Below, piece after piece: positions 509 to 19,106 of a stretch of 64,000 bases of DNA. A program made the position numbers and the translations under genes. Position 1 is the stretch's first letter, and each line of letters starts with the position of its first letter. The notes below the pieces were generated by a model. The model was not told where the DNA came from. It made no database searches and saw only the letters and a program-made list of their open reading frames with translations. This stretch comes from an uncultured Cryomorphaceae bacterium (GTDB lineage: Bacteria > Bacteroidota > Bacteroidia > Flavobacteriales > Schleiferiaceae), in NCBI GenBank assembly GCA_937120475.1, contig CAKZJV010000005.1, positions 1 to 64,000 of the forward strand, in the 5' to 3' direction.

Positions 509-526
509 TTGGAGCCAGTAGCTGGT

Positions 527-3500
527 ATGAGAAAGTTTTTACTGTCTATTTTTCTTCTTTCATCACTGATAACCTTCGGGCAATCGCCCGGGGGTGTATC
601 CGGTTCCCTGCGCGTTTGGTATAAGGCCAATGAGGGTACCGCCAATACTACGGATAACTCCAACTCAGGAGGATGGAGCGACCAGTCCGGGAACGGTTAC
701 AACGCCTGGATAAACGGCACCCCCCTTTACATGGACAATGCCACGGAAAACATCAACTTCAACCCCACCATTTACCTGAATGGTAGCAGCTACTTTAACC
801 TGAATAACCCGGTCATCCGTAGTGGTGGCCACCAGTTTGGGAACCCCATCCGCGATTATACCATCATCGGGGTAGGTCTCAGGGAAAACGGTGGCTATAA
901 CATTGTTTTTGGCGACAATGCCAACAACGGGGCCGAGCAGGCCCTGGCCTTTGGTTATAAAAACACCAACACCACCGCCACTATAACCCACTGGACCAAT
1001 GACCTTGATCTTACCGGCCTCGATGTTTACAACAGCCCAGCGGAGTCGCCCTTTCTTCTGATGGGAAATTATGACCAGAACAGTGGCCGCGTACTCGAAG
1101 AGATTCGCAACAATGATTTTAACCGCATTTCGGACGGAAATACCACACCCCTGAACGGCTACAGCGGTTTTCACGTAGGAAGGACTGCAGCCGGAGGTTG
1201 GGGCAATTTTACCGGAAGGATAAGTGAAGTGGTTGTTTACCAAACCGCCTTATCAGGACTGGACAAACAAAAGGTATATACTTACCTGGCCCTGAAGTAT
1301 GGTTTAAGCCTCCCGGCTGATGCCGATGGCGATGCCACTCCCAATGAAATCCTGTCGGGTTCTGTAAGGGAAGGTGATTACGTGGCTTCAGACGGTACTA
1401 CCATCATCTGGGATTATGCTGCTCAGGGCAGCGGCTACCATAATGATGTTGGTGGCATTGGCCGGGATGATAATTCCGAGCTGTACCAAAAACAATCCAA
1501 AAGTCAAAACCCCGGAGCACTCCTTACCTTTGGTTTGGGCAGCATTGAAAACACCAACAACGCCAACTCCTCCACCTTTAGCAATGATAAAACCTTTATG
1601 CTGTGGGCCAATAACGGAGGTTCCAATAGCTTCACTACTACCGGTGCCCCTAGCGGACGTGAAATACTGGGTCGCCAGTGGCGCGTACAGGAAACCGGTA
1701 CGGTAGGAACGGTCAAACTCCAGGTTCCGGCCAGTACCAGCAGCCTCAGCGATAAATTACCTGCTGCAGGAACCCTGGAACTTTTGGTGGATGATGACGG
1801 GAACTTCAGCAGCGGGGCCACCTCCTATGGTATGACGCTGAACGGCACCAACTGGGAAATTGATATTAACCTTTCCGATGGCGATTATTTCACCTTTGCC
1901 CCCGGAGGAGCAGAGCTTTCAGCTACGGTAGTGGGTAATGAGAGCGGCCCCGTTAACGTTGAGTTTACCGTAACTCTTCCCAGTGTAAACACCACTGGAA
2001 GTGCCTTCACCTTTGATATTGATGACGAATTCACCGGAACCGCCACTAACGGCACCGACTACGTATCCATCCCGTTGAGTGCTACTATTTCGGTTCCCAA
2101 CGGCAGCCAGACCGGAACCTATTCCATAACGGTGATTGACGATGGCGATGGGGAAGGCATTGAAACTATTGATGTAAGCATCAGCAACCCCTCCGGACCG
2201 GAGTATTTTGTAGCACAAGGTAACGCCACCGGAACCATACTGGATGATGATTCAGGGCCGGGAGGGGTGGGAGGCTCCTTGAACGTATGGCTGCGTGCTG
2301 ATTTTGGCACCTCCACATCTACCAATAATACCGCGCTCACTACCTGGTCTGATCAATCCATACAGGGCAATGATGCCACCTCAACGGGTGACCCTCCCCT
2401 CTTCAAAAACAATATTACCGATAACATCAATTTTAACCCCACCATTGACTTTGACGGCAGCAATGACCGCCTGGCCCTGGACCTTACCGATATAAAAAAC
2501 GGTAATGGTAACGGCAATGGTAAGTACACTCTGATATCGGTAGGACTTCGCGAAGATGGCAACGCCAACTTTATTATCGGCTCACAGAATTACACCTATA
2601 CCGACAAACTTCATTTTGGATACTCTGCCAATGCCAATCTCACTCTTTCCAACGGCCCTAATGTGGATATCAGCACCAACGCCTTTAATAATCCTGCGCT
2701 AACCCCCTTCCTCATCTTTGCCCAGTATAACGGCAGCGGACGCATACTGGAGGAAACGCGTGATGCTGTTTTCAGACGTTCATCCGACAACAATAGTCAG
2801 CCCATCACCAACAACCAGAATAACTACATCGGTGATGTGGAATCCGGGAGTGCCCATTATAACGGCCGTATCAGTGAGCTTATCGTGTATGATAATGATA
2901 TCGGAGATCTAGAGAAGCAACAAGTGTACTCCTACCTGGCCCTTAAGTATGGTCTTCAACTGGGGAACAACAATGATAATGATGCCAGTGTAAACGAGAT
3001 CATTTCCGGATCAGTAAAAGAAGGGGATTACATAGCCTCCGATGGCTCTACCGTAGTATGGACGTACGCCACCCACGGTTCCACTTATTTCAATGATTTA
3101 GCCGGTATTGGCCGGGATGACGGTGGCGCCTTAAACCAAAAACAATCCAAATCTGCCAGCCAGGATGCCCTGATCACCATGGGCCGGGATACTGTAGTTT
3201 CACTGAACAGTGCCCATCCCAACACCTTTGCTTCCGACCTGAGTTTCCTGCTTTGGGGTAACAATAACGGCAGCGTAACTTTTACCACTACCGGGGCCCC
3301 CACCAATCGCGAAATACTGGGCCGCGTGTGGAAAGTACAAAAAACGGGAAGCCCCGGAACGGCCAGGCTCCGGGTTCCCGCCAGTACCAGCAGCCTTAGC
3401 TCCAAGCTTCCGGCAGCCAGCGCACTGGATATACTGGTAGATGATGACGGTGATTTTACCAGTGGTTTCGAAATTGTTTCCTTGCAACTGGTAGGCACCA

Positions 3501-6500
3501 ACTGGGAAGCCGATGTTGATTTTGACAACGGAGACTATTTCACCTTTTCACCCAAAGGTGCCGACCTCAGCGTAAGTGTAAACGGAAATGAAAATGGCCC
3601 GGTAAACATTGAGTTTACCGTTACCCTTGCCAATACCAACACCACCGGCAGTGCCTTTACTTTTGATATAGATGATGCCGGAACGGGAACCGCTACCAGC
3701 GGTTCAGATTATACGGCTATCCCCGGAGCGGCCACCATTTCCGTACCGAACGGAGCCTCTACCGGCACCTATTCCGTAACGGTGCTGGATGATGGGCTGG
3801 CCGAAGGCAATGAAACCGTGAGAGCCACCATCAGCAATCCTTCCGGGCCGGAATTCTTTGTGGGAATTTCTACGGCTACGGCTACCATTTTTGATAATGA
3901 TGCCGGGCCCGGTGGAGTGGGTAATAACCTCAATGTTTGGCTAAAAGCCAATGCGGGAACTTCCACCTCTACCGATAATACCAGCCTCACTTCCTGGACG
4001 GATCAGTCTCCTGACGGGAACAATGCTCTTGAAGATGGCAACCCTCCGCTTTATCGGACTAATAGCGCAGACAATATCAATTACAACCCAAGCATTGAAT
4101 TTGACGGTAGTAATGACCGCCTGGTGCTGGATCTTACCGACATCAAGAACAGCAACTACACCTTACTCGGGGTAGGTATCCGCGAAGACGGTAACGCCAA
4201 TTACCTGCTGGGCTCTGACGGGGGCACCAATAATAACGGTCTTGGTTTTGGTTATACCTCAGCTAATACCACCGCTAGCCTTGGCCATTGGAATAACAAC
4301 CTGAACCTGACCGGGCTTAACGGTTTCAATACGCCAAACCTGACCCCCTTTATACTGTTTGGGGATTACAATGGTTCCGGACGTAGCCTGGAAGAAACGC
4401 GTGATGCCGGCTTTGCCCGTAACACGGATAATAACACTGTTGATTTGGGTGGTACCGAAACCAATTACATAGGAGCCCTGGTCAACAACAATGCCTACTA
4501 CTCCGGGAGAATCGGTGAGATTATAGCCTATAACAGCGATGTGACCGCCCTGGAAAAACAGCAGGTGTACTCCTACCTGGCCCTTAAATACGGGATGACC
4601 CTTACAGATGATTCTGATGGCGATGCCTCTGTAAACGAAGTGATTTCCGGAAGTGTGCGTGAAGGAGATTATGTAGCTTCCGATGGAACCACAATTATCT
4701 GGAGTTACAATACTAACGGCAGCACTTATTTTAACGATTTGGCAGGTATTGGCCGTGATGATGCCAGTCAGCTTAGCCAAAAACAATCCCGTTCCTCCGC
4801 CACCGATGGCCTGGTGATCATGGGGCTCAACAGCATTGCCGCCAGCAATGCAGCCAATACTGGTAGCTTTTCAGTGGATAAGAGCTTTTTGATGTGGGGT
4901 AATAACGATGGCAGTATCACTTTTACCACCACCGGAGCTCCCGCGGGCCGCCAGGTATTGGATCGTAAGTGGAAAGTACAGGAAACGGGTACGGTGGAAA
5001 CGGTACGGATCAGGGTACCGGCCAGCAACAGCAGTGCCACAACCAAAATACCGGCCACGGCAGTATTGGATATCCTGGTGGATGGCGATGGTGATTTTAC
5101 CTCCGGTGCCACCGCCCATGCTATGAGCCTGAACGGTACCAATTGGGAAACCGATTTGAACCTTACCAACGGTAACTTCTTCACCTTCTCTGCCCAGGGA
5201 GTTGTGTTAAGTGTAAGCCAAAATGGTGCGGAAAACGGCCCTACCGCCATTGAGTTTACCGTTACCCTGCCTAAAGTAAACACCTCCGGCAGTGCCATCA
5301 CCTTTGATATTGACGATGCCGCAACCGGAACGGCTACCAGTGGCACCGACTATACCGCCATTCCCGGTGCAGCAACCGTATCGGTAGCCAATGGATCGCA
5401 AAGCGGTACTTACACCGTTACCGTAAACGATGATGCCAACCCGGAAGCCAATGAAACTATGTCTGCGACCATCAGCAACCCTTCGGACCCGGAGTACTTT
5501 ATCGGTACCGCCACGGCTGAAGCCCTGATCCTGGACAATGATGTTGGCCCCGGGGCCGTGGGCAACAACCTGGTTTTGTGGCTAAAGGCTAATTCGGGAA
5601 CTTCCACCTCTACCAACAACACTTCGCTCAACACCTGGCTGGATCAATCACCCGGAGCCAATAATGCGAACAGTGATGGTAGCCCACCCACCTATAAGAG
5701 CAACACCACCGACAATATCAATTACAATCCGGTTATTGACTTTGACGGTATTAATGACCGTTTACTGTTGGATGATTTTGACATAACCGGCAGCAACTAT
5801 ACCTTGATCGGGATTGGCCAGCGGCAGGCCACGGGCTTTAACCCGCTTATCGGTTCCGAGGGTACATCGGATAACCAGGACCTGTATTTTGGTTACCGCG
5901 ACAATACCACGGCTACACTTTCCCAACAACGCTACAGTGGGTTCCTGAACCTAACCGGACTGAACACTTTTGACAATCCTGCAGAAACCCCTTTCTTATT
6001 GTTTGGTGATTACGATGGAAGCAACCGTTCCCTGGAAGAATTACGGGATCAAAGTCTGAGCGATATTACGGCCGCCTATACCACCAACCTTGGTGGCAAC
6101 CGTGACCATTTTATAGGTGACCATGAAACCGAAAACAGTTATAATGGTCTTATCGGGGAGGTGGTGGCCTACAATACAACCCTCACCGGCCTGGAAAAGC
6201 TGCGCATTTATTCCTACCTAGCCCTGAAATACGGCTTTACATTACCGGATAATAATGACAATGATGCCACCGCCAACGAAGTAATTTCCGGCTCCGTGCG
6301 AGAAGGTGATTATGTAGCTTCCGATGGAACCACCCTTATCTGGAATTACGCCAGCCAGGGTGCAACCTATTTTAACGATGTTACCGGAATAGGCCGTGAT
6401 GACGAAAGTAACCTGCTGCAAAAACAATCCAAATCCGAAAACACGGATGGAATGGTGGCTATTGGTTTGAATAGCATAGCCGCTTCCAATACCGCTAATG

Positions 6501-9500
6501 CTGGCTCCTTTAGTGGTGACCTCAGCTTTTTACTATGGGGCAATAACGATGGAAGTATTGCCTTTACAGCCACCGGGGCTCCTACGGGTAAACAGGTATT
6601 GAGCCGGGTCTGGCGGGTGCAGGAAACCGGTACCATTGGCTCAGTAGCCATCCAGGTACCCGCCAATAACAGCACGGCAACTACTAAAATACCTTACGTT
6701 ACTTCCCTTTCCATATTGGTGGATGCGGACGGTGATTTTACCTCCGGTGCCACCGAAACTACCCTCGCCTTAAACGGCAGTAATTGGGAAGGCTCAGTGG
6801 ATTTTGCCAGCGGAAATTACTTTACCTTCCAGAAAAGCGGGGCGGTGATCAGCACCACCACCAACGGTGACGAAGATGGGCCGGTGGATATTGTATTTAC
6901 CGTTACCCTGCCCGGTAACAACACCAGTGGCTCGGCCATTACCTTTGATATTGCCGATGCAGGAACCGGCTCGGCCACCAGCGGCAGCGACTACACTGCT
7001 ATTCCCGGGGGTGCACAGGTAAGCATCGCCAATGGGGCATCCACCGGAACGTACACCCTTCCGGTGATTTATGACGGTGTGCAGGAGGTACAGGAAGACG
7101 TGAACGTAACCATTAGCAACCCTTCCCTGGCCGATATTCACATTGAACAGGCCTCCGCCAATGCCACTATTGAAGACTTTAGCCCAGTTGATCCTTCGCC
7201 CGGTGGGGTGCTGGATAACCTGGTATTCTGGCTCAAAGCCGACACCGGTACCAACACCCAGCTAAATGGCGGCAGCGTAACTGGTTGGACGGATGTTAGC
7301 GGTAATGGCAATTCAGCCAGTAGCAGCGGCACCGCGCCACTCTTTGATGCGGTATTAGCCAACTATCAGCCTGCCATTGACTTTTCCGGTACTTCTGATT
7401 ATATGGGTATCAGTAACTCTGCCGATATTAATACCAGTGCTGCTTCCGCCAAATCGTACACCATAGTGCTAAGAACGGGCAGCGATATTACCACCCGCCA
7501 GCTTATTTACGAAGAAGGCGGTGGCACCCATGGACTCAACATTTACCTGGAAGGTGGCAACCTTCACACCAATATTTGGGTGAGCGGTGGTGATAATGAT
7601 GCTTCCACTCCCATTGCCGTTAATACCGAGTACGTGGTAACTTTTGTTTACGATGGTGGTAACAGTCGTTGGGATACTTACCTTAACGGAAGCCTGGCCA
7701 TGAGTGATGCCACGGTACAAACTTCTTTGCCTTCACATTCAGGCGCTATTGGTATTGCCGCCATCAATAATACCACCCGTTATAATGGCACCAACGTTTC
7801 TTCAGGTGATCCTTTTGGTGGACAAATTATGGAGATGGCCTATTACAACACCAAGGCCCTCACCACCACCGAAAGAAACCAGATTGAATCCTACCTGGCC
7901 GCCAAATACGGTATTTCATTACCGGGCAATTACCTGGCTGCAGATGGCTCCACGGTATTCTGGAACAGTACCACTAACTCCGGCTATACTAATGAGGTAA
8001 GCGGTATTGGTCGCGATGATCTGAGTTCCCTGGATCAAAGGCAGAGTATAGGTGCTTCACCCGACTCGCTTCTCAGCATTGGTTTAGGCGATATTAACGG
8101 CAGTAATGCTGGTAATGCCAATACGTTTTCGAGTGATGAGAACTTTCTTTTTTGGGGACACAACAACGGCAACCTCATCTTTACCAATATCAATGCACCG
8201 GCAGTACGCTCAGTGTTGCAACGTACCTGGCGCTTTCAACATACCGGAAATGTGGGAACTATAAAGATCAGGGTGCCTGATAATGGCAGTGGATACCTAA
8301 CCACCCTGCCCCCGGAGGAAAGCAATGTATATCTGCTTACGGATGCCGATGGGGATTTTTCTTCCGGAGCAAGCGAAACCAGCCTCAGCCTTAATGGCAA
8401 TTATTGGGAAGCGACCCTTACCACACCTTCGCTACCCTACTTTACCATTGCCACAGACCGTATTACCGATGCCAACCTTACCGTTACCGTGAATGGTGAT
8501 GAAACCGGACCGGTAAACATTGAGTTTACCGTGGTGCTTCCGGATACCAACCGTACAGGCGGCCCCATAACTTTCGACATTGATGACCTGGGTACCGGTA
8601 GTGCTACCAGTGGATTCGATTATGTGGCGGTGGGAGCCAGCGATCAGATCAGCGTTGCCGATGGCGATCTTTTTGGGACCTACACCCTAACCGTAGTGGA
8701 CGATAACCTGCGGGAACCGATTGAAGACGTTACCCTGGAGATCAGTAATTCTTCCGACCCGGGCACTACCATTGGGGTTGGAAGTGCTACCGCTACCATT
8801 AGTGATGATGACGTGGCTTACCCGGGTGGGGTTAGCGAGAATCTCATCTTTTGGTTTAAAGCAGACCTGGGTACCAATACCACTACGGACGGAGCAGCAG
8901 TAACCAACTGGACCGATCAGACCAACAGCGGAAGGAATGCCTCTGCCATTAACAGTGGGCCGTTGTATGCAGAAGTACTGAGTAACTACAACCCCGCCAT
9001 TGATTTTTCCGGGGATGGTTTTACCATGGCCGATGACGATGCTATTAATACCGATGGTCCTTACGCGGCTAAATCATATACCATAGTGTTTCGCACCGGT
9101 AGTGATGTGAATACCCGGCAACTCATCTACGAGCAAGGAGGTGGTGGTAATGGCATGAACCTTTACCTCAACGGTGGAAACCTTGAAGGTAACCTTTGGA
9201 ACGGTAGCGTGGATTACCCCGTTACCACCGCTGCCAGTGCCAATACCGTTTATGTGGTCACCTATGTTTTTGACGGAGGCAGCAATACTATTTCGCTCTA
9301 CGTGAACGGCAGTTTAGCTAACAGCAATACTTCCGCTCCCAATACCCTATCCAACCACAGCGGTGATGTAGGCATCGGTGAAATTGATAATGACACCCAG
9401 TTTAACCCAGGCACCGATGTAGGTTCCGGGGAAAATTTACAGGGACACATCATGGAAATCATTTATTTTAATGAGGATGTACTTACTACCACCGAGCGTA

Positions 9501-11776
9501 ACCAAACCGAGTCCTACAGTGCCTTAAAATACGGGGTAAGCCTGGGTACTGATTACATCAGTTCAGATGGCAGCACCGTAATCTGGGACTTTAGTGCCAA
9601 CACCGGCTACAACAATGATATTGCCGGAATCGGGGTAGATGGATTATCAGAATTGATCCAAAAGCAAAGTTCGTCTGAAAACAGTGATGCCCTTGTTACC
9701 ATCGGCCTGGGGAGCATTGCCAGTTCCAATCAAACCAACAACACTGATTTCAGTGCGGACGAGAGTTTTCTGATTTGGGGGAATGATGATGGCAGCCTGG
9801 CCGGAACGGTTTCCAGCGCATCCATCACGGCCGAAACCGGCATTGTGGATCAACTGCAGCGCAAATGGAAAATTGTGGAAAACAATACGGTGGATGCCGT
9901 TCAGGTAGCCATACCTCAAAGTGAACTGGAGAGTTATTTCCCTTACCTCAACGAAGGGGGCAACCTTTACCTCAGAGTAGCAGACAATGCCGCCCTCACT
10001 TCCAACGTGCAGGAGTATGCTCTGAGCACCGCCACGGTAAATTCAGTAGCCAGTTATGTAACGTCCATCGATTTTGACGGCACCCAATATTTTACCGTGG
10101 TTCAAAAAGACATTATCCTCTGGACGGGTACGGAGTGGCGGGGTGGGCTAAGCTCTGTAACTGATCATGCACCCTCTAATGAGGCGGCCGATGCGACTAA
10201 AGCAATGATCATCCTGGCCAGTGATACAGCCCGGTTAACCGAAGCAGTAGAGGTTAATTCAGTAACCGTGAACAGTGGGGCCAGCCTCGCCTTATCTGCA
10301 GCCAATTGCCTGCTGGTCAATTCCACATTCACCAATAATGGGAATTACCTACTGGAAGCCGACAACTCAGGATTCGCTTCCTACAAGGGGCCAGCCGTGG
10401 AAGCCACCTATCAGCAGTACATTGATAACGGGGGCTGGCACCTCATAGGTTCGCCATTTTCCGATGCTACCTTTAATGATTTCAGCTTCCTGAATGATAA
10501 TGGTTTTATTAACCACCCCATAGGAGGTAGCAGCCAGGATTCCTGCATTTATTGCAATTTGTTCTGGTATGACCCCGCTACGGATAATGGTGAGGACATT
10601 GGTTTTGGGGCTTCCACCGCCTACGGCACCTGGCGTTCATCGGTGGACAGTTCCGAAGGCTTTCTACCCACCAGGGGATGGAATATGTTTTTTGATAGCG
10701 CCTCGGGTTTTTCAACTGCACCCTGGACTTTGATCATTGCCGGTACCTTGAACAATGGTAATATCATACAGTCGGTAAACGAAAATAACGGGGGTTGGAA
10801 CTTACTGGCCAATCCCTACCCTTCGGTTTTAGACTGGGACAGTTTTGCAAACGGCCTTTCGGGAGAAATTGCCAGCGCTTACCACATTTGGGATCATGAA
10901 AACAACAATTATGCGGTGTACTCTCCTGGATCGGGAACCCTTGGAGCTACGCGGTATATAGCCCCGTTACAAGGCTTTTTTGTGCAAACGCTAACGGCTG
11001 GTGGACAAGGTTCGGGTAATACGCTTTACAACCTTACATTCGCCAATACCGATCGTCCTGATGCCTGTAAAACGGATTCTTCAGTCTTCTTTAAAACCAC
11101 TGCAAGCAACCGCATCATTTTACAAACCAGGCATCTGAAAAGTGGCAAAATCGATGAGGCTATCCTTAACTTCAGTTCAGCTTATCAGCGTAACTACCAA
11201 CCGGATGAGGATGTAAACAAACTTTTTAGTTCCCGCTATGATGTTTCATCGGTATATACCCGTGCCGGTGAACATTATTTGGCTATTACCGGAATGAGTT
11301 TTCCAACCACGCGCGATAGCAGTATTGTAGGTGTACGGGCTCGCGAGGAAAGGGAAATCAGTATCCAGGTTATCGAATACCCTGCCAACTGGACGGTGTA
11401 CCTGGAAGACCGACTAACGGGAATATGGCATCCTGCTGGTGATCCCTATACATTTACACAGGATAACCGTTTAAAAGACCGTTTCATACTGCATTATAGT
11501 TCAAACGAAATTGAAAAGCGTACCCTTGCGGCAGAGTTGTTAGAACTCTATATAAACAAGGGCGATTTAATGATAAATATTCGTCAGAATGTGGTAGAAG
11601 CCGATTGGCAATTGATCAGTTTAAACGGTGCGGTAGTTCTAAGAGGCCGGGTTGAACCCGGAGGCCCTCATAAACAAAGGGTAAGCATTTCCAACCTGAG
11701 TTCAGGAACTTACCTCTTTCAATTAATTACCGACCGGGAGGTTGAAAACCGAAAGATTCCGATTATCCAAAAATGA
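527..11776 (+). CDS. giant T9SS surface protein with six LamG/DUF8202-like units and five Calx-beta domains
   Basis: The product has 3749 residues and is predicted to be exported and anchored or released by the type IX system. I chose ATG 527 over the upstream TTG at 509 because it begins a clean signal peptide (MRKFLLSIFLL..., cleavage after TFGQ, residue about 19). Six repeat units begin with (S/G/Y)PGxV at residues about 21, 578, 1128, 1675, 2225 and 2766. Each has a LamG/concanavalin-like half, with a W(Y/L/F)KA motif and WxDQS, then a DUF8202-like half with KYG, ASDGTT and GIGRDD motifs. Units 1-5 end in a Calx-beta domain (acidic GTATSGTDY and SNPS motifs, DDD linker). Unit 6 lacks it and leads into a WTG...W domain at about 3195-3560. 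A diverged type A sorting domain ends the protein (ISNLSSGTYLFQL). Units 1-4 share one LamG subtype and units 5-6 another. The gene is ATGA-coupled to the next one. An adhesive or glycan-binding role is inferred. Confidence 0.9.
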   Translation: MRKFLLSIFLLSSLITFGQSPGGVSGSLRVWYKANEGTANTTDNSNSGGWSDQSGNGYNAWINGTPLYMDNATENINFNPTIYLNGSSYFNLNNPVIRSGGHQFGNPIRDYTIIGVGLRENGGYNIVFGDNANNGAEQALAFGYKNTNTTATITHWTNDLDLTGLDVYNSPAESPFLLMGNYDQNSGRVLEEIRNNDFNRISDGNTTPLNGYSGFHVGRTAAGGWGNFTGRISEVVVYQTALSGLDKQKVYTYLALKYGLSLPADADGDATPNEILSGSVREGDYVASDGTTIIWDYAAQGSGYHNDVGGIGRDDNSELYQKQSKSQNPGALLTFGLGSIENTNNANSSTFSNDKTFMLWANNGGSNSFTTTGAPSGREILGRQWRVQETGTVGTVKLQVPASTSSLSDKLPAAGTLELLVDDDGNFSSGATSYGMTLNGTNWEIDINLSDGDYFTFAPGGAELSATVVGNESGPVNVEFTVTLPSVNTTGSAFTFDIDDEFTGTATNGTDYVSIPLSATISVPNGSQTGTYSITVIDDGDGEGIETIDVSISNPSGPEYFVAQGNATGTILDDDSGPGGVGGSLNVWLRADFGTSTSTNNTALTTWSDQSIQGNDATSTGDPPLFKNNITDNINFNPTIDFDGSNDRLALDLTDIKNGNGNGNGKYTLISVGLREDGNANFIIGSQNYTYTDKLHFGYSANANLTLSNGPNVDISTNAFNNPALTPFLIFAQYNGSGRILEETRDAVFRRSSDNNSQPITNNQNNYIGDVESGSAHYNGRISELIVYDNDIGDLEKQQVYSYLALKYGLQLGNNNDNDASVNEIISGSVKEGDYIASDGSTVVWTYATHGSTYFNDLAGIGRDDGGALNQKQSKSASQDALITMGRDTVVSLNSAHPNTFASDLSFLLWGNNNGSVTFTTTGAPTNREILGRVWKVQKTGSPGTARLRVPASTSSLSSKLPAASALDILVDDDGDFTSGFEIVSLQLVGTNWEADVDFDNGDYFTFSPKGADLSVSVNGNENGPVNIEFTVTLANTNTTGSAFTFDIDDAGTGTATSGSDYTAIPGAATISVPNGASTGTYSVTVLDDGLAEGNETVRATISNPSGPEFFVGISTATATIFDNDAGPGGVGNNLNVWLKANAGTSTSTDNTSLTSWTDQSPDGNNALEDGNPPLYRTNSADNINYNPSIEFDGSNDRLVLDLTDIKNSNYTLLGVGIREDGNANYLLGSDGGTNNNGLGFGYTSANTTASLGHWNNNLNLTGLNGFNTPNLTPFILFGDYNGSGRSLEETRDAGFARNTDNNTVDLGGTETNYIGALVNNNAYYSGRIGEIIAYNSDVTALEKQQVYSYLALKYGMTLTDDSDGDASVNEVISGSVREGDYVASDGTTIIWSYNTNGSTYFNDLAGIGRDDASQLSQKQSRSSATDGLVIMGLNSIAASNAANTGSFSVDKSFLMWGNNDGSITFTTTGAPAGRQVLDRKWKVQETGTVETVRIRVPASNSSATTKIPATAVLDILVDGDGDFTSGATAHAMSLNGTNWETDLNLTNGNFFTFSAQGVVLSVSQNGAENGPTAIEFTVTLPKVNTSGSAITFDIDDAATGTATSGTDYTAIPGAATVSVANGSQSGTYTVTVNDDANPEANETMSATISNPSDPEYFIGTATAEALILDNDVGPGAVGNNLVLWLKANSGTSTSTNNTSLNTWLDQSPGANNANSDGSPPTYKSNTTDNINYNPVIDFDGINDRLLLDDFDITGSNYTLIGIGQRQATGFNPLIGSEGTSDNQDLYFGYRDNTTATLSQQRYSGFLNLTGLNTFDNPAETPFLLFGDYDGSNRSLEELRDQSLSDITAAYTTNLGGNRDHFIGDHETENSYNGLIGEVVAYNTTLTGLEKLRIYSYLALKYGFTLPDNNDNDATANEVISGSVREGDYVASDGTTLIWNYASQGATYFNDVTGIGRDDESNLLQKQSKSENTDGMVAIGLNSIAASNTANAGSFSGDLSFLLWGNNDGSIAFTATGAPTGKQVLSRVWRVQETGTIGSVAIQVPANNSTATTKIPYVTSLSILVDADGDFTSGATETTLALNGSNWEGSVDFASGNYFTFQKSGAVISTTTNGDEDGPVDIVFTVTLPGNNTSGSAITFDIADAGTGSATSGSDYTAIPGGAQVSIANGASTGTYTLPVIYDGVQEVQEDVNVTISNPSLADIHIEQASANATIEDFSPVDPSPGGVLDNLVFWLKADTGTNTQLNGGSVTGWTDVSGNGNSASSSGTAPLFDAVLANYQPAIDFSGTSDYMGISNSADINTSAASAKSYTIVLRTGSDITTRQLIYEEGGGTHGLNIYLEGGNLHTNIWVSGGDNDASTPIAVNTEYVVTFVYDGGNSRWDTYLNGSLAMSDATVQTSLPSHSGAIGIAAINNTTRYNGTNVSSGDPFGGQIMEMAYYNTKALTTTERNQIESYLAAKYGISLPGNYLAADGSTVFWNSTTNSGYTNEVSGIGRDDLSSLDQRQSIGASPDSLLSIGLGDINGSNAGNANTFSSDENFLFWGHNNGNLIFTNINAPAVRSVLQRTWRFQHTGNVGTIKIRVPDNGSGYLTTLPPEESNVYLLTDADGDFSSGASETSLSLNGNYWEATLTTPSLPYFTIATDRITDANLTVTVNGDETGPVNIEFTVVLPDTNRTGGPITFDIDDLGTGSATSGFDYVAVGASDQISVADGDLFGTYTLTVVDDNLREPIEDVTLEISNSSDPGTTIGVGSATATISDDDVAYPGGVSENLIFWFKADLGTNTTTDGAAVTNWTDQTNSGRNASAINSGPLYAEVLSNYNPAIDFSGDGFTMADDDAINTDGPYAAKSYTIVFRTGSDVNTRQLIYEQGGGGNGMNLYLNGGNLEGNLWNGSVDYPVTTAASANTVYVVTYVFDGGSNTISLYVNGSLANSNTSAPNTLSNHSGDVGIGEIDNDTQFNPGTDVGSGENLQGHIMEIIYFNEDVLTTTERNQTESYSALKYGVSLGTDYISSDGSTVIWDFSANTGYNNDIAGIGVDGLSELIQKQSSSENSDALVTIGLGSIASSNQTNNTDFSADESFLIWGNDDGSLAGTVSSASITAETGIVDQLQRKWKIVENNTVDAVQVAIPQSELESYFPYLNEGGNLYLRVADNAALTSNVQEYALSTATVNSVASYVTSIDFDGTQYFTVVQKDIILWTGTEWRGGLSSVTDHAPSNEAADATKAMIILASDTARLTEAVEVNSVTVNSGASLALSAANCLLVNSTFTNNGNYLLEADNSGFASYKGPAVEATYQQYIDNGGWHLIGSPFSDATFNDFSFLNDNGFINHPIGGSSQDSCIYCNLFWYDPATDNGEDIGFGASTAYGTWRSSVDSSEGFLPTRGWNMFFDSASGFSTAPWTLIIAGTLNNGNIIQSVNENNGGWNLLANPYPSVLDWDSFANGLSGEIASAYHIWDHENNNYAVYSPGSGTLGATRYIAPLQGFFVQTLTAGGQGSGNTLYNLTFANTDRPDACKTDSSVFFKTTASNRIILQTRHLKSGKIDEAILNFSSAYQRNYQPDEDVNKLFSSRYDVSSVYTRAGEHYLAITGMSFPTTRDSSIVGVRAREEREISIQVIEYPANWTVYLEDRLTGIWHPAGDPYTFTQDNRLKDRFILHYSSNEIEKRTLAAELLELYINKGDLMINIRQNVVEADWQLISLNGAVVLRGRVEPGGPHKQRVSISNLSSGTYLFQLITDREVENRKIPIIQK
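587..10110 (+). repeat. six tandem protein-coding repeat units
   Basis: Unit boundaries, set at the proline codon of the (S/G/Y)PG motif, are 587, 2258, 3908, 5549, 7199 and 8822. Units 1-5 are therefore 1671, 1650, 1641, 1650 and 1623 bases long, all whole numbers of codons. Unit 6 ends near 10110 and lacks the Calx-beta third. The repeats are diverged at the DNA level but keep the same motif order, so they look like old duplications rather than a recently expanding array. Confidence 0.85.
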
Positions 11777-12375
11777 TCAGGTCATGGCCTACATATCATT
11801 GGTTTTTACCCGCATGCTTTATGTGGCTGGGCCAGCCCTGGAGTTTGGATCTATCGGCCCAACCCGGAAACCCGATTTTCGGGCTTACCACTGAAATGGG
11901 TATGGCTGTGGATATGCAACCCATTGCCATCTTTGATATTGAGACCAATACGGGTACAACCGACATTACACTCAATCTAACTTCCCCCGGTGAAGCGGGT
12001 GAGTCGTTGGATACCGCTACTCAAGTGAACAGCAACAACTGGATCAATTATTCCAGTGCGGACCGTGACGTTTCCAGCCGTCATATCGAGGTAAGCGTGG
12101 GTGCCGGAAGCGTTCCGGCCGGTTTGGAGTTGTTGGTCAGCGTGGGAAATTGTGTGGGTGGGGCCGGTTCAAGAGGAAGCCCGGTATCTTCGGAAGTGAG
12201 CATCTCCACCGTTGCTCAGAATATTATTACCGGCATACAAGGTTGTTATACCGGCAATGGTCCGGGCTTTGGCCACCAACTAACCTTCAGGTTGCGTTAC
12301 ATCAATTCGAACTTTGACCAGATTACGGTGCAATCCACGCCCTTAACCATAGTTTATACCATGGTAGATGACTAA
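11773..12375 (+). CDS. exported protein of unknown function, paralogue of the next gene
   Basis: A 200-residue protein that starts at the ATGA overlapping the stop of the giant gene, so it is very probably translated with it. The N-terminus is a long, Trp-rich signal-like segment ending near LSAQPG (residues about 1-30). The mature part is rich in Thr, Ser, Val and Gly and looks all-beta. Its C-terminus ends in alternating strands (LTIVYTMVDD) that resemble the end of the next protein (TTIIFTLYGD). Both also share an internal FR-containing strand and an I(I/A)G(I/Q)G turn. I do not recognise the family. Fold and context suggest a fimbria-like or WxL-like beta-sandwich partner of the giant protein, but this is inference. 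Confidence 0.75.
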   Translation: MIRSWPTYHWFLPACFMWLGQPWSLDLSAQPGNPIFGLTTEMGMAVDMQPIAIFDIETNTGTTDITLNLTSPGEAGESLDTATQVNSNNWINYSSADRDVSSRHIEVSVGAGSVPAGLELLVSVGNCVGGAGSRGSPVSSEVSISTVAQNIITGIQGCYTGNGPGFGHQLTFRLRYINSNFDQITVQSTPLTIVYTMVDD

Positions 12376-12883
12376 GTGGAAATATTCATACCGGCTATTT
12401 TTCCCACTGGTCTTTTACCTGGGCCTGGGCCATTTAGCGAGTGCCCAATTGGTGCGCAGCCAGGTAACGGAATGGACAGAAATACTGGATGCCGGCTCAC
12501 TGGCCACACCCAATGAAGCGGGTTCAGACCTGAACCCTACCCTGGAAACCTCGTCCACCTACAATCAATTGGATGTAAATAACGTGAGAAACACGCAGGA
12601 CTGGCGCATTACCGTAAGTAAGCTGGATGTAAACTGGCCCGCCCAGTTTATTCCCTATGTACAAAGAACCAGTACCGGCATACCCTGTGGTTCCTGCACC
12701 GGGGTAGATGTGGGTAACTCCATAACCGGCTACCTACAGATAACTGACCTGGAACAGGATTTTATTGCGGGACAGGGTGCGGTGAGTAATATTGATCTAC
12801 AGTTCCGGATAAACGGCATTACCCTGGCTTTGAAAGCAGATTATTACCGCACCACCATAATTTTCACCCTTTACGGTGATTAA
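12368..12883 (+). CDS. exported protein of unknown function, second paralogue
   Basis: A 171-residue protein overlapping the preceding gene by 8 bases. It has a signal peptide (hydrophobic core LFFPLVFYLGLGHLASA, cleavage before QLVRS). The mature domain has the same plan as its neighbour: an ITVS strand, a WPA motif, one Cys pair (CGSC), then ITD..QDFIAGQG, LQFRI and a final TTIIFTL strand. No known family is recognised. As last gene of the operon it is convergent with, and overlaps by 4 bases, the barrel gene at 12880-14475. The three-gene order (giant repeat protein, small protein, small protein) suggests structural subunits or anchors for one surface structure. Confidence 0.75.
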   Translation: MTKWKYSYRLFFPLVFYLGLGHLASAQLVRSQVTEWTEILDAGSLATPNEAGSDLNPTLETSSTYNQLDVNNVRNTQDWRITVSKLDVNWPAQFIPYVQRTSTGIPCGSCTGVDVGNSITGYLQITDLEQDFIAGQGAVSNIDLQFRINGITLALKADYYRTTIIFTLYGD

Positions 12884-14475
12884 AAGTTATAGGCCGCTTC
12901 CAAGCTGATTCCCAGTTGATAATACCTTTGCCGGACACCGTCCTGCACCAGGCTGGAGTTGAGCTGCATATTGCCGAAACCGTTTAAACGCAGGCTAATG
13001 CTGCGGCTGAGGTAACAATCCACACCCAAACTAAACAGGGCATTGTATTGTAAAGGGGCAACCAAACCGGAAGTTTCCTCTTCACTAAGGCTAAGGTTTG
13101 ACCCGGCCTGTATATACCGGAAGGAAGTTTGTATTGGGACACCCAGCGAAAAGCCTCCTCTTAACCAGGGCTTTAACCTTCCTTTACCAAAGCGGTATCC
13201 CAGGGTTAGCGGTATTTCAACGTAATTCCATGAGGTTCGGCCATTGTTCTTTTCAAGGGTGGTATCCCGGTAATCGTACACCACGTTATAATTCCAGTAG
13301 CCCTGGAATATGCCGGTAATTACCCGCATAGAATCTACGGAAACCACGTTGTTATAGTCATTAACCGATCCGTAACGACCATCTACAACGGCTGTATCCC
13401 TGCGGTTGAAATTATATTGTAACTCTTCTCCATATTCCGCCCAACGAATACCCAGGCCCAGCGTCCAGTTAGAGTTCAGGAAGTAATCCAGGTTTACACC
13501 GGTAGGAATGGTCCAGATTTCTTTTTCCTCGGCCTTTCGTTTTTCCAGGTACGAGGTATTTTCCGATTCTAATAACTTACCGGTGAATGCATACCCTCCC
13601 CATAATGAAACGGAAAAACGTTCCCGTGAAAAAAGCCCCATTTTATCTTCCTCCCCGGCACTGCTCAGCACGTCAGCTTCCGCGATGTTGGGGAAAGCCA
13701 GGTGTGCCATTCTGAAATTAGTGGTTTTCTCCTCTTCCTCGCTTTCCGGGGTTTCCGTTGTACCCATTTCCGATGGCTGGTTTAGTGTCTCCTCTTTTGG
13801 TTCACCGGGACTCTCTTCCTGGTTTTCCAAAGCCACTGGCTCCTTTTCCTGCTCATTAACTGAAGCAGAAGGACTGGACGGTTCTTTAATATCGCCTTTT
13901 TCTTCAGCAATATCTGCTTCCGCCATAAGCGTGGATTCGTCTGCACTATTTTCTGATTCAGATTCCACGTTAACAGGGTTGGAAGAATTAACCGATGAAC
14001 CGGAAGGTTTTGTACCGGCAGGGGCACTGGATGATTTACGATTGTTAGTGATGCTAGTTGGGGCATAATTTTCAGCTACAACTTCCAAAGGCGAATCCTC
14101 TTCAACATCAACTTTACCACTGCTTGTCGGTATTTCACCTTCTTCATTCTGTGGCTCACCAGAAGTTATTTCTTCACTTTCCTGTTTCAGCAAGTCCGGT
14201 TGCTCCTCATCCGCAATATTAATCTCTGTGGGATTTGGCTGGATGTTCTCATCAGCTGCCTGATTCTCCCGGAAACCCCAATACCAGATAGCCGGAATAA
14301 GCAGCAATACCAGTAAGGCCAAACCTAAAGCCCGCCATAAGCCCGAACCACTTCCGGAAACCGGCATTTCGGCATCCAGCATTTTTTCCATATCCGCCCA
14401 GCCCTTTTTCTTCAGGCTATCGGGGAAATTCTGCTCTCCGAATTCTTCCTTATATTTTTTATCGATCTGACTCAC
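12880..14475 (-). CDS. envelope-spanning anti-sigma candidate: inner-membrane helix, acidic linker, outer-membrane beta-barrel
   Basis: A 531-residue protein with three parts. Residues 1-45 are a short cytoplasmic segment with an FPDSLKKKGWADMEKML core, of the type seen at the N-terminus of Bacteroidota barrel-linked anti-sigma proteins. Residues 46-68 form one transmembrane helix (LALLVLLLIPAIWYW). Residues 70-285 are a disordered Glu/Ser/Pro/Asn-rich linker. Residues about 285-531 look like an outer-membrane beta-barrel (FSVSLWGGYAF, alternating aromatic strands, terminal AAYNF). There is no cleavable signal peptide, so the N-terminus should stay in the cytoplasm. The GTG start overlaps the stop of the ECF sigma gene (GTGA), so the two are translationally coupled. 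This matches the architecture of the dual-membrane-spanning anti-sigma (Dma) proteins of Bacteroides. Sigma binding is inferred from the pairing. Confidence 0.8.
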   Translation of the reverse strand: MSQIDKKYKEEFGEQNFPDSLKKKGWADMEKMLDAEMPVSGSGSGLWRALGLALLVLLLIPAIWYWGFRENQAADENIQPNPTEINIADEEQPDLLKQESEEITSGEPQNEEGEIPTSSGKVDVEEDSPLEVVAENYAPTSITNNRKSSSAPAGTKPSGSSVNSSNPVNVESESENSADESTLMAEADIAEEKGDIKEPSSPSASVNEQEKEPVALENQEESPGEPKEETLNQPSEMGTTETPESEEEEKTTNFRMAHLAFPNIAEADVLSSAGEEDKMGLFSRERFSVSLWGGYAFTGKLLESENTSYLEKRKAEEKEIWTIPTGVNLDYFLNSNWTLGLGIRWAEYGEELQYNFNRRDTAVVDGRYGSVNDYNNVVSVDSMRVITGIFQGYWNYNVVYDYRDTTLEKNNGRTSWNYVEIPLTLGYRFGKGRLKPWLRGGFSLGVPIQTSFRYIQAGSNLSLSEEETSGLVAPLQYNALFSLGVDCYLSRSISLRLNGFGNMQLNSSLVQDGVRQRYYQLGISLEAAYNF

Positions 14476-15044
14476 GCCCTTCTCAATCCTATTTTACCAT
14501 CAGGAAGTTGCTCCTGCAACTTGGTTCTTGCGTTACCCAGGTGTCTTATGGACGAACGCTCGGAAATATCCAATGCTTCGGCAATTTCCTTGTGCGAATA
14601 GCCATCTATTGCGTACAGGTTAAAAACCATTTGCTCCACCTTTTTTAAACTCCCCATTATATATTCCAGGTACTCCTTTTCTATCCACTCGCCACCAGGC
14701 TGCTCATTAATACTTTGATTTTCAAGATTATCAACCCCATTTTCGAACAGGGACATGCGCCTGCATTTCTTGCGATAACTGTCAATGGCCTCATTTACCG
14801 CGATGCGCTTAAACCAGGGGTCAAAAGGAAACTTGGGTTCGTACGTATGCAAACTTTTAAGAACTTTCATAAAAGCAACATTCAAAACTTCCATAGCCAT
14901 ATCTTCTTCCTTTTCATAACGCATACAAATGCTCATCATAGGGTTGAAACAGTAATCATATAACTGAAACTGCGCTCTCCTATCATTATGTAAACACCCT
15001 TGTATAACTTTATCAAGTTCCTTCACGCAAGGCTTTGACTGCAT
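14472..15044 (-). CDS. ECF RNA polymerase sigma factor
   Basis: A sigma-70 family protein of 190 residues when started at the ATG 15044 (MQSKPCVKELDK). An upstream ATG at 15113 would add 23 residues with no family similarity. Region 2 is seen in YDYCFNPMMSICMRY and in the FDPWFKRIAVNEAID segment, and region 4 in YSHKEIAEALDISERSS, the helix-turn-helix that reads the -35 element. Its stop overlaps the start of the coupled barrel protein, the likely anti-sigma. The target genes are unknown. The two PKD proteins upstream on the same strand and the surface operon opposite are natural candidates. Confidence 0.9.
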   Translation of the reverse strand: MQSKPCVKELDKVIQGCLHNDRRAQFQLYDYCFNPMMSICMRYEKEEDMAMEVLNVAFMKVLKSLHTYEPKFPFDPWFKRIAVNEAIDSYRKKCRRMSLFENGVDNLENQSINEQPGGEWIEKEYLEYIMGSLKKVEQMVFNLYAIDGYSHKEIAEALDISERSSIRHLGNARTKLQEQLPDGKIGLRRA

Positions 15045-15130
15045 AATGCAGTCCTTTGGTTGGATCGAAAACCCTTTGAAAAAACGAGACGGAACGAATA
15101 TTTTTGGCTCCACCCCTTTACCTCTCCGGC

Positions 15131-16939
15131 TTAGCGATCAATTTTTATTTTGTGGTGAGAACTATGGCCCTCACTCGTTAAACTTAGCAGGTACAGCCCC
15201 TCCGGCATCCGGGAAAGATCTACCCTCATTACTTCTCCTTCTTCCACCATCAGTCTTTTCTCCAATATCCGCCTACCGCTTATATCCGCTATCTGTAATA
15301 ACCAGTTACCTGCCTCACCGGCCGGAAATTCCACCCACAACTCTTCCCTGGCCGGGTTTGGGTACACATCAATATGAACTTCTGCCCGCTCCGGCAGGCT
15401 AATATTTTCAGGGTTTAGCACAAAAAGGGTAAAACCGGCTCCGCTTTTGTTGATCAAACGGCCTAACGAATCTACCACCAGGGTATCCTGAAAAAAACTT
15501 GTGCAACTATCTCCACTCGAATTTTGCCGGCTCACCAAGGTAAGGTTCAGGTTATAGCTTCCCGGACCGTTATAAACGTGGGTTGGATAAGCCATAGAAG
15601 AGGTAGTTCCATCGCCAAAATCCCAGGTGTAAAAATTATCATAATCAGGATTGTTATTGGTGGGTGTGGAATTATTCCAGATGAACACACTGCCGCTGTA
15701 ACTATTTACAGTATCCACTATGTAAGAGGCACTACAATTAAATCCAGAGGAGTCAGGTTCTATCACAATCAGCTTGCAAATGCTATCGCTGCACAATAAA
15801 TTACCAAGGCTATCTCTCACCAAAAGGTTGAGACAAACCTGGTAAGTTCTGGGAACGGTATCGGTAACATAAGTATGGGTAACCGTGGCCGAGCTATCTT
15901 TACTACCGTCACCAAAATCCCATACAAGTTCCACCTCAGTTCCACCACCTGATGCGGAAATAGAGCTACTATCCTGGAAGGTAACGGTTTGGCTTAGTGA
16001 ATCGAAATTCAGGATTACAAATTCAGCCCGGCAGTTTACCGGAACAGGAACATCAATTAATACATTGTCACAAAATACATCCGAACAAACCGTATCTACG
16101 GTAAGTGAAGCCGTATCTATTGAAAATATTTCCAGGCAAACCTGGTAAAGGCCATTGGCCGAATAAGTATGTGCGGGGTTAAGCTGAGTGGAAAAAGTAC
16201 CGTCCCCAAAACTCCAGCGGTAGCGATCTTCTACCGTTGGTGGTGCTCCTCCCGAGGAAGAATTATTGGTAAAGTTTACCGTAGAGTCATTTACCGAAAA
16301 ACTAAAATTGGCGGTACAGCCCGGATCGAAAACAGTAATTTGTTGTTGCACCGATTGGCTATCCAAAATGAAAGTTGGGAAAATGGAATCACGAATTGTC
16401 ATGGTTAAACTTACCGTGTAAACGCCAGCTGCATTGTAAATGTGAGAAGGGTTTACCTGGGACGAGCCGGTGCCATCACCAAAATTCCATTGGTAGGTAG
16501 TAGCGGACGAAAAAAGATAGGTGGAGACAGAGGTATTGATAAAATCCACTTTAGTGCTGTCACCCATCATTGGGATAAAATCCGGGCTCAAGGAAGGTGT
16601 GGGTGCGATGCAGTTCATGGAAAGGGTGTCGGTAGCGAAAAGCTGCGCAGCACCATAACTGTTATTGCCACTTACGTAAAAGCCGTTACAATCAAAGGTA
16701 AAGAAGGTTACCGTAAAGGCCCCTCCGGGTGGCGCAACGGTATCAATAAAAATGCCATTAGCATTGGTGGTACCCGAAATATACCGGGTATTGTTTCCTT
16801 CCACGGCAATCCAAACCGGTTGGTTAGGCACGCCCTGCACGCCCGCAGAATCTACGTATAAGACCATGACCAGTGATTGAGCACTCGAGCCAAGGCCTAA
16901 CATCAAAAACAAACACAGTATAAAAATCCTTCGGTTCAT
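15131..16939 (-). CDS. PKD-repeat protein with T9SS sorting domain
   Basis: A 602-residue exported protein. The signal peptide is MNRRIFILCLFLMLGLGSSA. An N-terminal domain with GTTNANG and FDCNGF motifs (residues about 22-110) is followed by four PKD-type modules recognised by W(N/S/D)FGDG(T/S) and (H/T)(I/T)Y motifs. The C-terminus is a type A sorting domain: VYPNPA, then GLYLLSL and HKIKID. PKD modules are beta-sandwiches that usually act as spacers or carbohydrate- and protein-binding units at the cell surface; no catalytic domain is visible. It is a diverged paralogue of the next gene and ends close to the start of the ECF sigma gene. Confidence 0.88.
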   Translation of the reverse strand: MNRRIFILCLFLMLGLGSSAQSLVMVLYVDSAGVQGVPNQPVWIAVEGNNTRYISGTTNANGIFIDTVAPPGGAFTVTFFTFDCNGFYVSGNNSYGAAQLFATDTLSMNCIAPTPSLSPDFIPMMGDSTKVDFINTSVSTYLFSSATTYQWNFGDGTGSSQVNPSHIYNAAGVYTVSLTMTIRDSIFPTFILDSQSVQQQITVFDPGCTANFSFSVNDSTVNFTNNSSSGGAPPTVEDRYRWSFGDGTFSTQLNPAHTYSANGLYQVCLEIFSIDTASLTVDTVCSDVFCDNVLIDVPVPVNCRAEFVILNFDSLSQTVTFQDSSSISASGGGTEVELVWDFGDGSKDSSATVTHTYVTDTVPRTYQVCLNLLVRDSLGNLLCSDSICKLIVIEPDSSGFNCSASYIVDTVNSYSGSVFIWNNSTPTNNNPDYDNFYTWDFGDGTTSSMAYPTHVYNGPGSYNLNLTLVSRQNSSGDSCTSFFQDTLVVDSLGRLINKSGAGFTLFVLNPENISLPERAEVHIDVYPNPAREELWVEFPAGEAGNWLLQIADISGRRILEKRLMVEEGEVMRVDLSRMPEGLYLLSLTSEGHSSHHKIKIDR

Positions 16940-17040
16940 AAAAATAAGTCCTTACAAAGGCTTTCAAAGGTAATACGATTCAAAACCCCGGTACATGACA
17001 ATTTGATGTCATAATTTTTACCGCTCCTTAATTAAAAAAT

Positions 17041-18909: not shown

Positions 18910-19106
18910 AATTTGGGTTTTATAGGGTTATTAAACTTTAATAGCTTCACCCTAAGTACGAATCGGATGACGTGGGTAGGACAAAGCCCCCCGATTTTTT
19001 TTAGAAATATTCGCCCACCTCTTTCTTAATCATTGTTTTACATGTGGTTAAATAAAGAGGACTCGCTAATTCAGTATCTTTAAACCAAATCAAAAACGAG
19101 AACAAG

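Follow-up and report, generated by a model that had tools for sequence, protein, structure and literature searches.

The Dma1/Das1, Dma2/Das2 and Dma3 systems of Bacteroides thetaiotaomicron have introduced dual membrane-spanning anti-sigma (Dma) proteins (PMC13088901). The passages on Dma proteins considered here propose outer-membrane stress as the cue and establish no direct signal. In Bacteroidales relatives, freed EcfO, a sigma factor of the extracytoplasmic function (ECF) type, leads to NigD surface lipoproteins (PMC13114119), and NigD targets have been reported both for EcfO-Reo and for Dma1, each a sigma factor with a long barrel anti-sigma protein (PMC9308784, PMC13114119, PMC13088901). 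Here we analyse a 64,000-nucleotide stretch of DNA from an uncultured marine Cryomorphaceae bacterium (assembly GCA_937120475.1, contig CAKZJV010000005.1; hereafter the window), in which an ECF sigma gene overlaps the gene of an anti-sigma candidate. Like Dma1 and Dma2, this candidate has an adjacent ECF sigma gene and is predicted to comprise an N-terminal anti-sigma domain, one transmembrane helix, a long disordered tether and a C-terminal barrel (PMC13088901). We propose, with a probability of about 0.68, that the pair is a Dma-type transmembrane switch wired to type IX-secreted surface proteins with PKD domains. The NigD lipoproteins driven by EcfO may be viewed as a parallel output.

Results

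The sigma/anti-sigma pair

The sigma protein is, by Pfam (Sigma70_r2, E 4.3e-10; Sigma70_r4_2, E 9.1e-11) and NCBIfam (sigma70-ECF superfamily, E 7.1e-21), a plain ECF factor. Its open reading frame (ORF) extends over 14472-15113 on the reverse strand, and the ATG at 15044, the start given by the first-pass annotation of this DNA, is favoured by the relatives in an alignment of 14 sequences. The GTG start of the anti-sigma gene overlaps the sigma stop codon (GTGA, 14472-14475), as that annotation had noted. Its description of the product as a 45-residue N-terminus, one transmembrane helix and an acidic linker holds as well: the hydrophobic segment comprises residues 45-63, and the linker, of about 210 residues, contains 25% D+E and 44% S/T/P/G/N/Q and carries a net charge of -40. 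Nor is a cleavable signal peptide evident, again in agreement with the earlier description, as judged from the sequence without a signal-peptide predictor; 45 charged residues stand ahead of the helix, and the whole protein has a single Cys. A Pfam scan up to E 1 returned two barrel families only, and neither a FecR nor a zinc anti-sigma domain.

The C-terminal outer-membrane barrel, for which the first-pass annotation had called for a structure prediction, is upheld at the level of prediction. The Pfam family OMP_b-brl_2 covers residues 323-489 (E 2.8e-8, passing the cut-off), and in an AlphaFold2 model of the full protein, built from 4 sequences, strands run from residue 286 to the C-terminal Phe, forming what we read as a barrel of eight strands. 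Ten-residue blocks of this part mostly reach a predicted local distance difference test (pLDDT) score of 75-92 outside the loops. Helices span residues 3-11, 19-36 and 46-73, and residues 66-283 fall under pLDDT 50. Because of the linker and the loops, confidence in the whole model is low (mean pLDDT 52.8, predicted template-modelling score 0.41); a barrel-only model has a mean pLDDT of 68.0. The solved structures closest to the full model are OmpA (Z 17.4; 167 residues aligned, 2.8 A) and NspA (Z 16.7). With the barrel-only model OmpA scored Z 17.9, and the OmpA transmembrane domain, NspA and OmpW all scored about 16-18. A sequence match to a solved structure was also sought, but the best one was chance-like (ATP synthase b, E 0.006) and was set aside.

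A conserved operon with PKD genes

In the window and at related loci, one to three PKD genes with type IX tails lie just upstream of the sigma gene. Of 88 genomes of the family, 8 have pairs of the window type and 14 have any match at E 1e-8. At seven of these eight loci a PKD/type IX gene directly precedes the sigma gene on the same strand; at the eighth (genome G031) the contig ends at that point, and two PKD genes lie on another contig, where they adjoin a gene that we take to be typA-like, as in the window. A sister pair, whose copy in the window's own genome is found near C7:1,471,000, has the same layout in all seven loci from the protein search, and an eighth was found via the promoter described below. 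Since the window-type and sister-type sigma factors are sisters in the tree (94/73), the PKD link may be one ancient event kept through duplication rather than many separate ones. If the split case of G031 is counted, the PKD-sigma-Dma operon was found in 20 genomes, which represent 9 genera of the window's family. To regard the pair as a flavobacterial version of Dma, as the first-pass annotation did, was sound (see below) but incomplete, for the pair belongs to a conserved unit that also includes genes of type IX-secreted PKD proteins with a common ECF-like promoter. The coordinates are collected in Table 1.

Table 1. Features of the sigma/anti-sigma pair, the PKD genes and their predicted promoters, in window coordinates
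Feature	Position	Strand	Basis
ECF sigma factor gene	14472..15044	-	Pfam, NCBIfam, alignment of 14 sigma factors, tree
Dma-type anti-sigma candidate, 531 aa	12880..14475	-	ORF, Pfam, AlphaFold2 model
N-terminal domain, residues 1-45, candidate sigma-binding part	14341..14475	-	Profile A6 common to paralogs, phylum-wide pairs and nigD-linked pairs
Transmembrane helix, residues 46-73 of model	14257..14340	-	Hydrophobicity and model
Acidic disordered linker, residues 74-283	13627..14256	-	Composition; pLDDT <50 over 66-283
Predicted C-terminal outer-membrane barrel, residues 284-531	12883..13626	-	Pfam PF13568, models, PDB comparison
Loop signature RVITGIFQGYW, residues 384-394	13294..13326	-	In PKD-linked Dma proteins, not in 29 others
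PKD-domain protein with type IX secretion tail, 602 aa, directly upstream of sigma	15131..16939	-	PKD_4 E 3.2e-44, Por_Secre_tail E 2.1e-11
PKD-domain protein with type IX secretion tail, 606 aa	17089..18909	-	PKD_4 E 1.9e-31, Por_Secre_tail E 1.6e-13
Predicted ECF-like promoter TGTCATG-N16-CGTATTA, before 602-aa gene	16971..17000	-	Upstream-region pattern
Predicted ECF-like promoter TGTCCTA-N16-CGTACTT, before 606-aa gene	18954..18983	-	Upstream-region pattern

A promoter-like element ahead of the PKD genes

From 25 PKD upstream regions of 14 operons we read a two-block element, TG[T/G]C-N-Y-N, 16 bases, CGTA (TGTC-N19-CGTA for short). Two short blocks at a fixed spacing fit an ECF sigma factor. 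The element is present in 22 of the 25 regions, 20 by regular expression and two more (L048, L115) once ORF starts that had been set too early were corrected, and it is absent from all 14 sigma genes (within 130 nucleotides before them) and from all 285 other ORFs of the same loci. A PKD-like gene downstream of the G005 anti-sigma gene (L047:6063-7319) was kept out of both the PKD and the control sets. The fixed blocks of the 22 sites are partly due to the pattern itself, but letters for which it did not ask agree too, namely T after the first block (20 sites) and T and A after CGTA-N (17 and 14 sites), in contrast to a mostly variable spacer. Exactly two matches occur in the 64-kb window, both ahead of PKD genes.

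Gaps between PKD and sigma genes, taken from 20 of 22 operons (those of G256 and G026 were left out), fold at z <= -3 in 15 of 20 cases versus 9 of 65 control gaps. Together with the missing promoter site before the sigma genes, these folds suggest that the PKD genes are expressed highly and the sigma genes, by read-through, at a low level.

A stricter form of the pattern was then run on 13 genomes with pairs (48 rows) and on 13 genomes of the family in which no window-type protein had been found (42 rows). The latter were picked for having no strong window-type match, although G010, G018 and G020 have weak matches to other paralogs. All rows were inspected; 16 of the 48 were derivation sites or the repeat of one, leaving 32 + 42 = 74 independent rows. 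Seventeen of these (7 + 10) lie at most 150 nucleotides upstream of a type IX or PKD gene, where about 0.2 rows would be expected by chance, a rough estimate made from the 140 type IX tails of the window genome and not from reversed-pattern rows. Among the rows counted, the gene at L232 owes its PKD-like label to BLAST alone, and at L183 the second gene is split; a site slightly more than 150 nucleotides upstream of the gene for a 952-residue protein whose type IX signal is of the CHU_C kind (L187) was not counted. Eight of the 17 genes open an operon that continues with sigma and Dma genes; one such operon lies in G005 and the others in seven further genomes (G006, G010, G011, G020, G024, G026 and G034). 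In those seven, the PKD/type IX genes pass the Pfam cut-offs for both domains, and against the N-terminal profile the Dma proteins score E 1.7e-5 to 5.1e-15; the barrel matches of the Dma proteins are weak, with one of seven above the cut-off. Some sites precede type IX genes that have no pair in the stretch fetched (L175, L182, L189, L227, L233), so that the regulon may extend beyond the operon. L175 lies far from the pair, on the window genome's own contig C9 (about 141000-147000); it is a cluster of genes for type IX-tailed proteins, two of which carry the promoter with nearly identical spacers.

Variants of the element were also looked at. With a spacer one base longer, the pattern gave 12 rows, none of them a PKD promoter. 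One of the 12, a TGTC...CGTA with one extra spacer base, stands about 90-120 nucleotides before the sigma gene of a paralogous Dma-linked pair (G000:C7:2472284; L057). We looked for the same promoter before nigD genes (4 regions) and before the small exported genes of other Dma pairs (7 regions), and rejected it there, as no copy occurs at this spacing. When the pattern was loosened and its spacing widened, 2 of the 7 gave matches that look like chance. In five of those seven upstream regions (L074, L076, L077, L080, L092) another possible ECF-like element, CAACC-N15/16-ATCT, was seen by eye and without controls, standing before the small exported protein gene that precedes the sigma gene of a different Dma pair. 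If true, the implication would be that Dma operons as a rule use a promoter specific to their own pair to drive a neighbouring surface protein.

A loop signature of the PKD-linked branch

The 19 PKD-linked Dma proteins that we aligned share an invariant Gly in a W/R-V-I-D-x4-G-H-W-like block of a long barrel loop (about residues 354-410), where the signature of Table 1 sits. A regular expression derived from this PKD-linked alignment matches 21 of 23 PKD-linked Dma proteins, the other two being off by one residue, and none of 29 other long proteins of this plan. The loop is a natural place for ligand contact, though common descent of the PKD-linked branch would explain the signature too.

Relation to Dma and Reo proteins

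NigD served as the bridge to the Bacteroidales systems. Homology was run against nigD-linked proteins, and the named Bacteroides Dma/Reo proteins were set beside ours by description only. Among 295 genomes of the class there are nine NigD loci in eight genomes, four of them with a sigma gene and an anti-sigma protein whose N-terminus matches profile A6 (E 5.1e-7, 3.1e-8, 6.5e-3 and 1.9e-8, computed over the ORFs of each locus only). All four of these proteins have Pfam barrels, and a profile-profile comparison of their barrels with 19 PKD-linked members gave 97.8% (E 7e-13). In the tree, from which 7 of 23 own-genome matches were dropped for lack of a usable sigma region, the sigma factors of long, short and nigD-linked pairs fall on one side of a branch (88/87) against nine other sigma factors of the window genome. 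This placement is the observation that bears on whether the window sigma factor belongs to group ECF21, a trait of Dma/Reo partners. The window genome itself (G000) has no match to NigD_N (PF12667) at E 1e-6. Because the N-terminal profile, the barrel profile match, the sigma tree and the reported NigD-linked pairs of a sigma factor and a long barrel anti-sigma all point the same way, we file the window protein with the dual membrane-spanning (Dma; Reo) anti-sigma proteins of Bacteroidales, its sigma binding and membrane spanning being predictions. The kinship claimed by the first-pass annotation is thereby supported.

Spread of the pair and neighbouring genes

The pair is not a lone one. In the window genome, with 23 Sigma70_r4_2 matches, a long candidate (414-488 residues) comes after five further sigma genes, and a 242-residue protein without a barrel domain after one; Pfam barrel matches occur in four of the five long candidates (two above the cut-off) and not in the fifth. 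A whole-protein search misses distant members, so it was dropped as the sole census and the N-terminal profile (about 79 residues) was added. This profile matches 54 of 198 genomes drawn from the phylum, and among the matches listed an ECF sigma ORF lies directly upstream in all 30 loci examined, the window being one of them. Excluding the window, and assigning classes by length rather than by Pfam, 17 of 29 partners are barrel-length (381-516 residues) and 12 are short (225-283 residues). The architecture is widespread, and the pair alone is not novel. Three named relatives appear among the 74 pattern matches of the related-locus search, and the closest ortholog of the window anti-sigma among named records comes from a metagenome-assembled genome of Owenweeksia (Flavobacteriales).

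The barrel-less class of 225-283 residues, with a similar N-terminus and a sigma partner, is represented by L064, L066, L067, L069, L073, L079, L082 and L085-L089, and in the window's own genome by L056:7405-8133; 12 of its 13 sigma factors cluster in the tree, with low support. Two other Dma-like pairs of the window's family (L054, L055, L112, L116, L117) stand divergently to a type IX-tailed gene, which is of the DUF4397 or Rax2-like kind in the cases scanned; each pair was seen in two or three genomes.

Three forward-strand genes of the window converge on the anti-sigma gene. The first (509-11776) codes for a 3755-residue repeat protein with Calx-beta and laminin-G-like repeats and a weak type IX tail; the other two (11773-12375 and 12368-12883) code for small proteins without a Pfam match, and the last overlaps the anti-sigma stop codon by 4 bases. 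At L050 a 1542-residue relative of the giant protein likewise converges on the ortholog of the anti-sigma gene. The giant protein was considered as a target of the sigma factor and rejected because the only two pattern matches in the window both precede PKD genes and none stands there.

Discussion

In the mechanism that we propose, the N-terminus would hold the ECF sigma factor at the inner membrane, as homology and gene pairing suggest, and the predicted helix and disordered tether would connect it to the outer-membrane barrel. A change at the outer membrane or cell surface, probably read by the long conserved loop, would free the sigma factor through a pull, a conformational change or cleavage. 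The free sigma factor is then predicted to transcribe the PKD genes from their TGTC-N19-CGTA promoters. Since the sigma genes come after a PKD gene and no site was found within 130 nucleotides ahead of them, levels of sigma and anti-sigma would probably be raised by read-through from that gene, giving positive feedback. It is also conceivable, but unlikely, that the PKD protein is ligand as well as output, so that the Dma barrel loop reads type IX delivery, and absence or mislocation of the cargo frees the sigma factor to make more. If true, this would be a surface-to-gene cargo-feedback loop in a single protein, encoded by an operon in at least nine genera of one family.

Other accounts of the same locus deserve to be weighed. 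It is possible, if short of even odds, that release occurs by regulated proteolysis of the RseA type, the anti-sigma being cut in its linker or transmembrane helix and the barrel acting as the sensor that exposes the cleavage site. The linker is indeed long, predicted to be disordered and poorly conserved, and a single-helix membrane anti-sigma is the usual substrate plan of the textbooks; on the other side, no obvious protease was seen among the conserved neighbours, most of which are without Pfam annotation, although a protease need not be encoded nearby. Somewhat unlikely is the notion that the barrel reports on its own assembly, so that, when the barrel assembly machinery (BAM) fails to insert it, the protein stays in the periplasm and the sigma factor is set free, with the PKD genes as a stress output. 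The terminal Phe fits a BAM substrate, and the related EcfO-Reo pair is induced by envelope-disturbing toxins and has been proposed as an outer-membrane stress sensor (PMC9308784, PMC13114119). Plain assembly sensing would, however, have no need of a loop signature kept in PKD-linked members only, unless common descent explains it.

We regard it as improbable that TGTC-N19-CGTA belongs to another regulator of type IX cargo and that the sigma-Dma pair merely travels with the PKD genes. The sites ahead of type IX genes whose fetched surroundings contain no pair would fit such a regulator. Yet seven new PKD-sigma-Dma operons came from the scan of the 13 genomes that had yielded no window-type protein, the neighbours of the same genome's other pairs have no site at this spacing, and the two-block layout is that of an ECF sigma factor. 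Finally, export of outer-membrane barrels normally proceeds through Sec and involves a signal that is cleaved off, as textbooks teach, and the helix might be a signal peptide cut on export to leave a plain barrel with a linker rather than a dual-spanning protein; with 45 charged residues preceding the helix, and with an N-terminus that is the very part common to sigma-linked proteins across the phylum, this is highly improbable.

Several observations weigh against the proposed switch and its promoter. The pattern was picked by eye in the same 25 regions in which it was first counted, only the later scans being independent. With looser spacing and letters it finds 21 of 25 PKD regions but also 4 of 285 controls. 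Nor is it enriched as such: the rows fall mostly within genes, and the reversed control produced more of them than the pattern did (55 vs 48; 65 vs 42), so that row number is uninformative and the case rests on position only. The site is missing in the two inner genes of three tandem PKD genes in G029, and its spacing is one base less in G019; the PKD genes are related to each other, so their common promoters may be partly due to descent; and the sister pair has nearly the same site, which bears on which sigma factor reads the element. The hairpins frequent between PKD and sigma genes in relatives are absent from the window gap (z 0.0). As to the barrel, the structural model draws on just those 4 sequences and its loops are of low confidence, several PKD-linked relatives (L050, L110, L113, L180) have no Pfam barrel match, and the profile match to nigD-linked barrels drops to 57% (E 1e-4) with the five closest window orthologs; a common barrel fold could contribute to it. 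The 88/87 branch lies below the 95/80 mark, in a sigma tree with long branches.

We favour a Dma-type switch controlling type IX cargo. Here an entire branch of Dma proteins comes with a common candidate promoter, a defined set of secreted candidate targets and a conserved surface loop. This makes two questions directly testable, namely what a dual-spanning anti-sigma protein senses and by what means single cargo proteins of type IX secretion are regulated in Flavobacteriales.

Set beside the known systems, the window pair differs mainly in its output. Whereas the named linked or regulated genes of Dma1-3 include NigD and DUF proteins, the candidate targets in the window are type IX-secreted PKD proteins; Dma3 of B. 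thetaiotaomicron moreover carries its own sigma domain, unlike the window protein, and vesicle phenotypes belong to the Bacteroides Dma side of the comparison, our pair being known from its sequence alone (PMC13088901). With EcfO-Reo of Bacteroides fragilis and Phocaeicola vulgatus it shares a sigma gene upstream of a long barrel anti-sigma and, by prediction, a surface-protein output (PMC9308784, PMC13114119). EcfO-Reo is nonetheless a Bacteroidales system with NigD output, whereas the predicted output here is type IX cargo, in a genome without a NigD_N match. SigP of Porphyromonas gingivalis, with PorX/PorY, also links an ECF sigma factor to type IX secretion, but SigP is tied to a two-component system and to secretion-machine genes, and the window sigma to a barrel anti-sigma and to cargo genes (PMC4800418, PMC8265659). 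In an open-licence library, which lacks most subscription papers, we found no report that ties a Dma protein to PKD proteins or to type IX cargo. If our reading of the promoter is true, the Dma kind, recently described in gut bacteria, would extend to a new output. As in the textbook FecI/FecR and RseA pathways, the state of the outer membrane would reach an ECF sigma factor; in those pathways, it is separate outer-membrane, TonB or protease partners that carry the signal.

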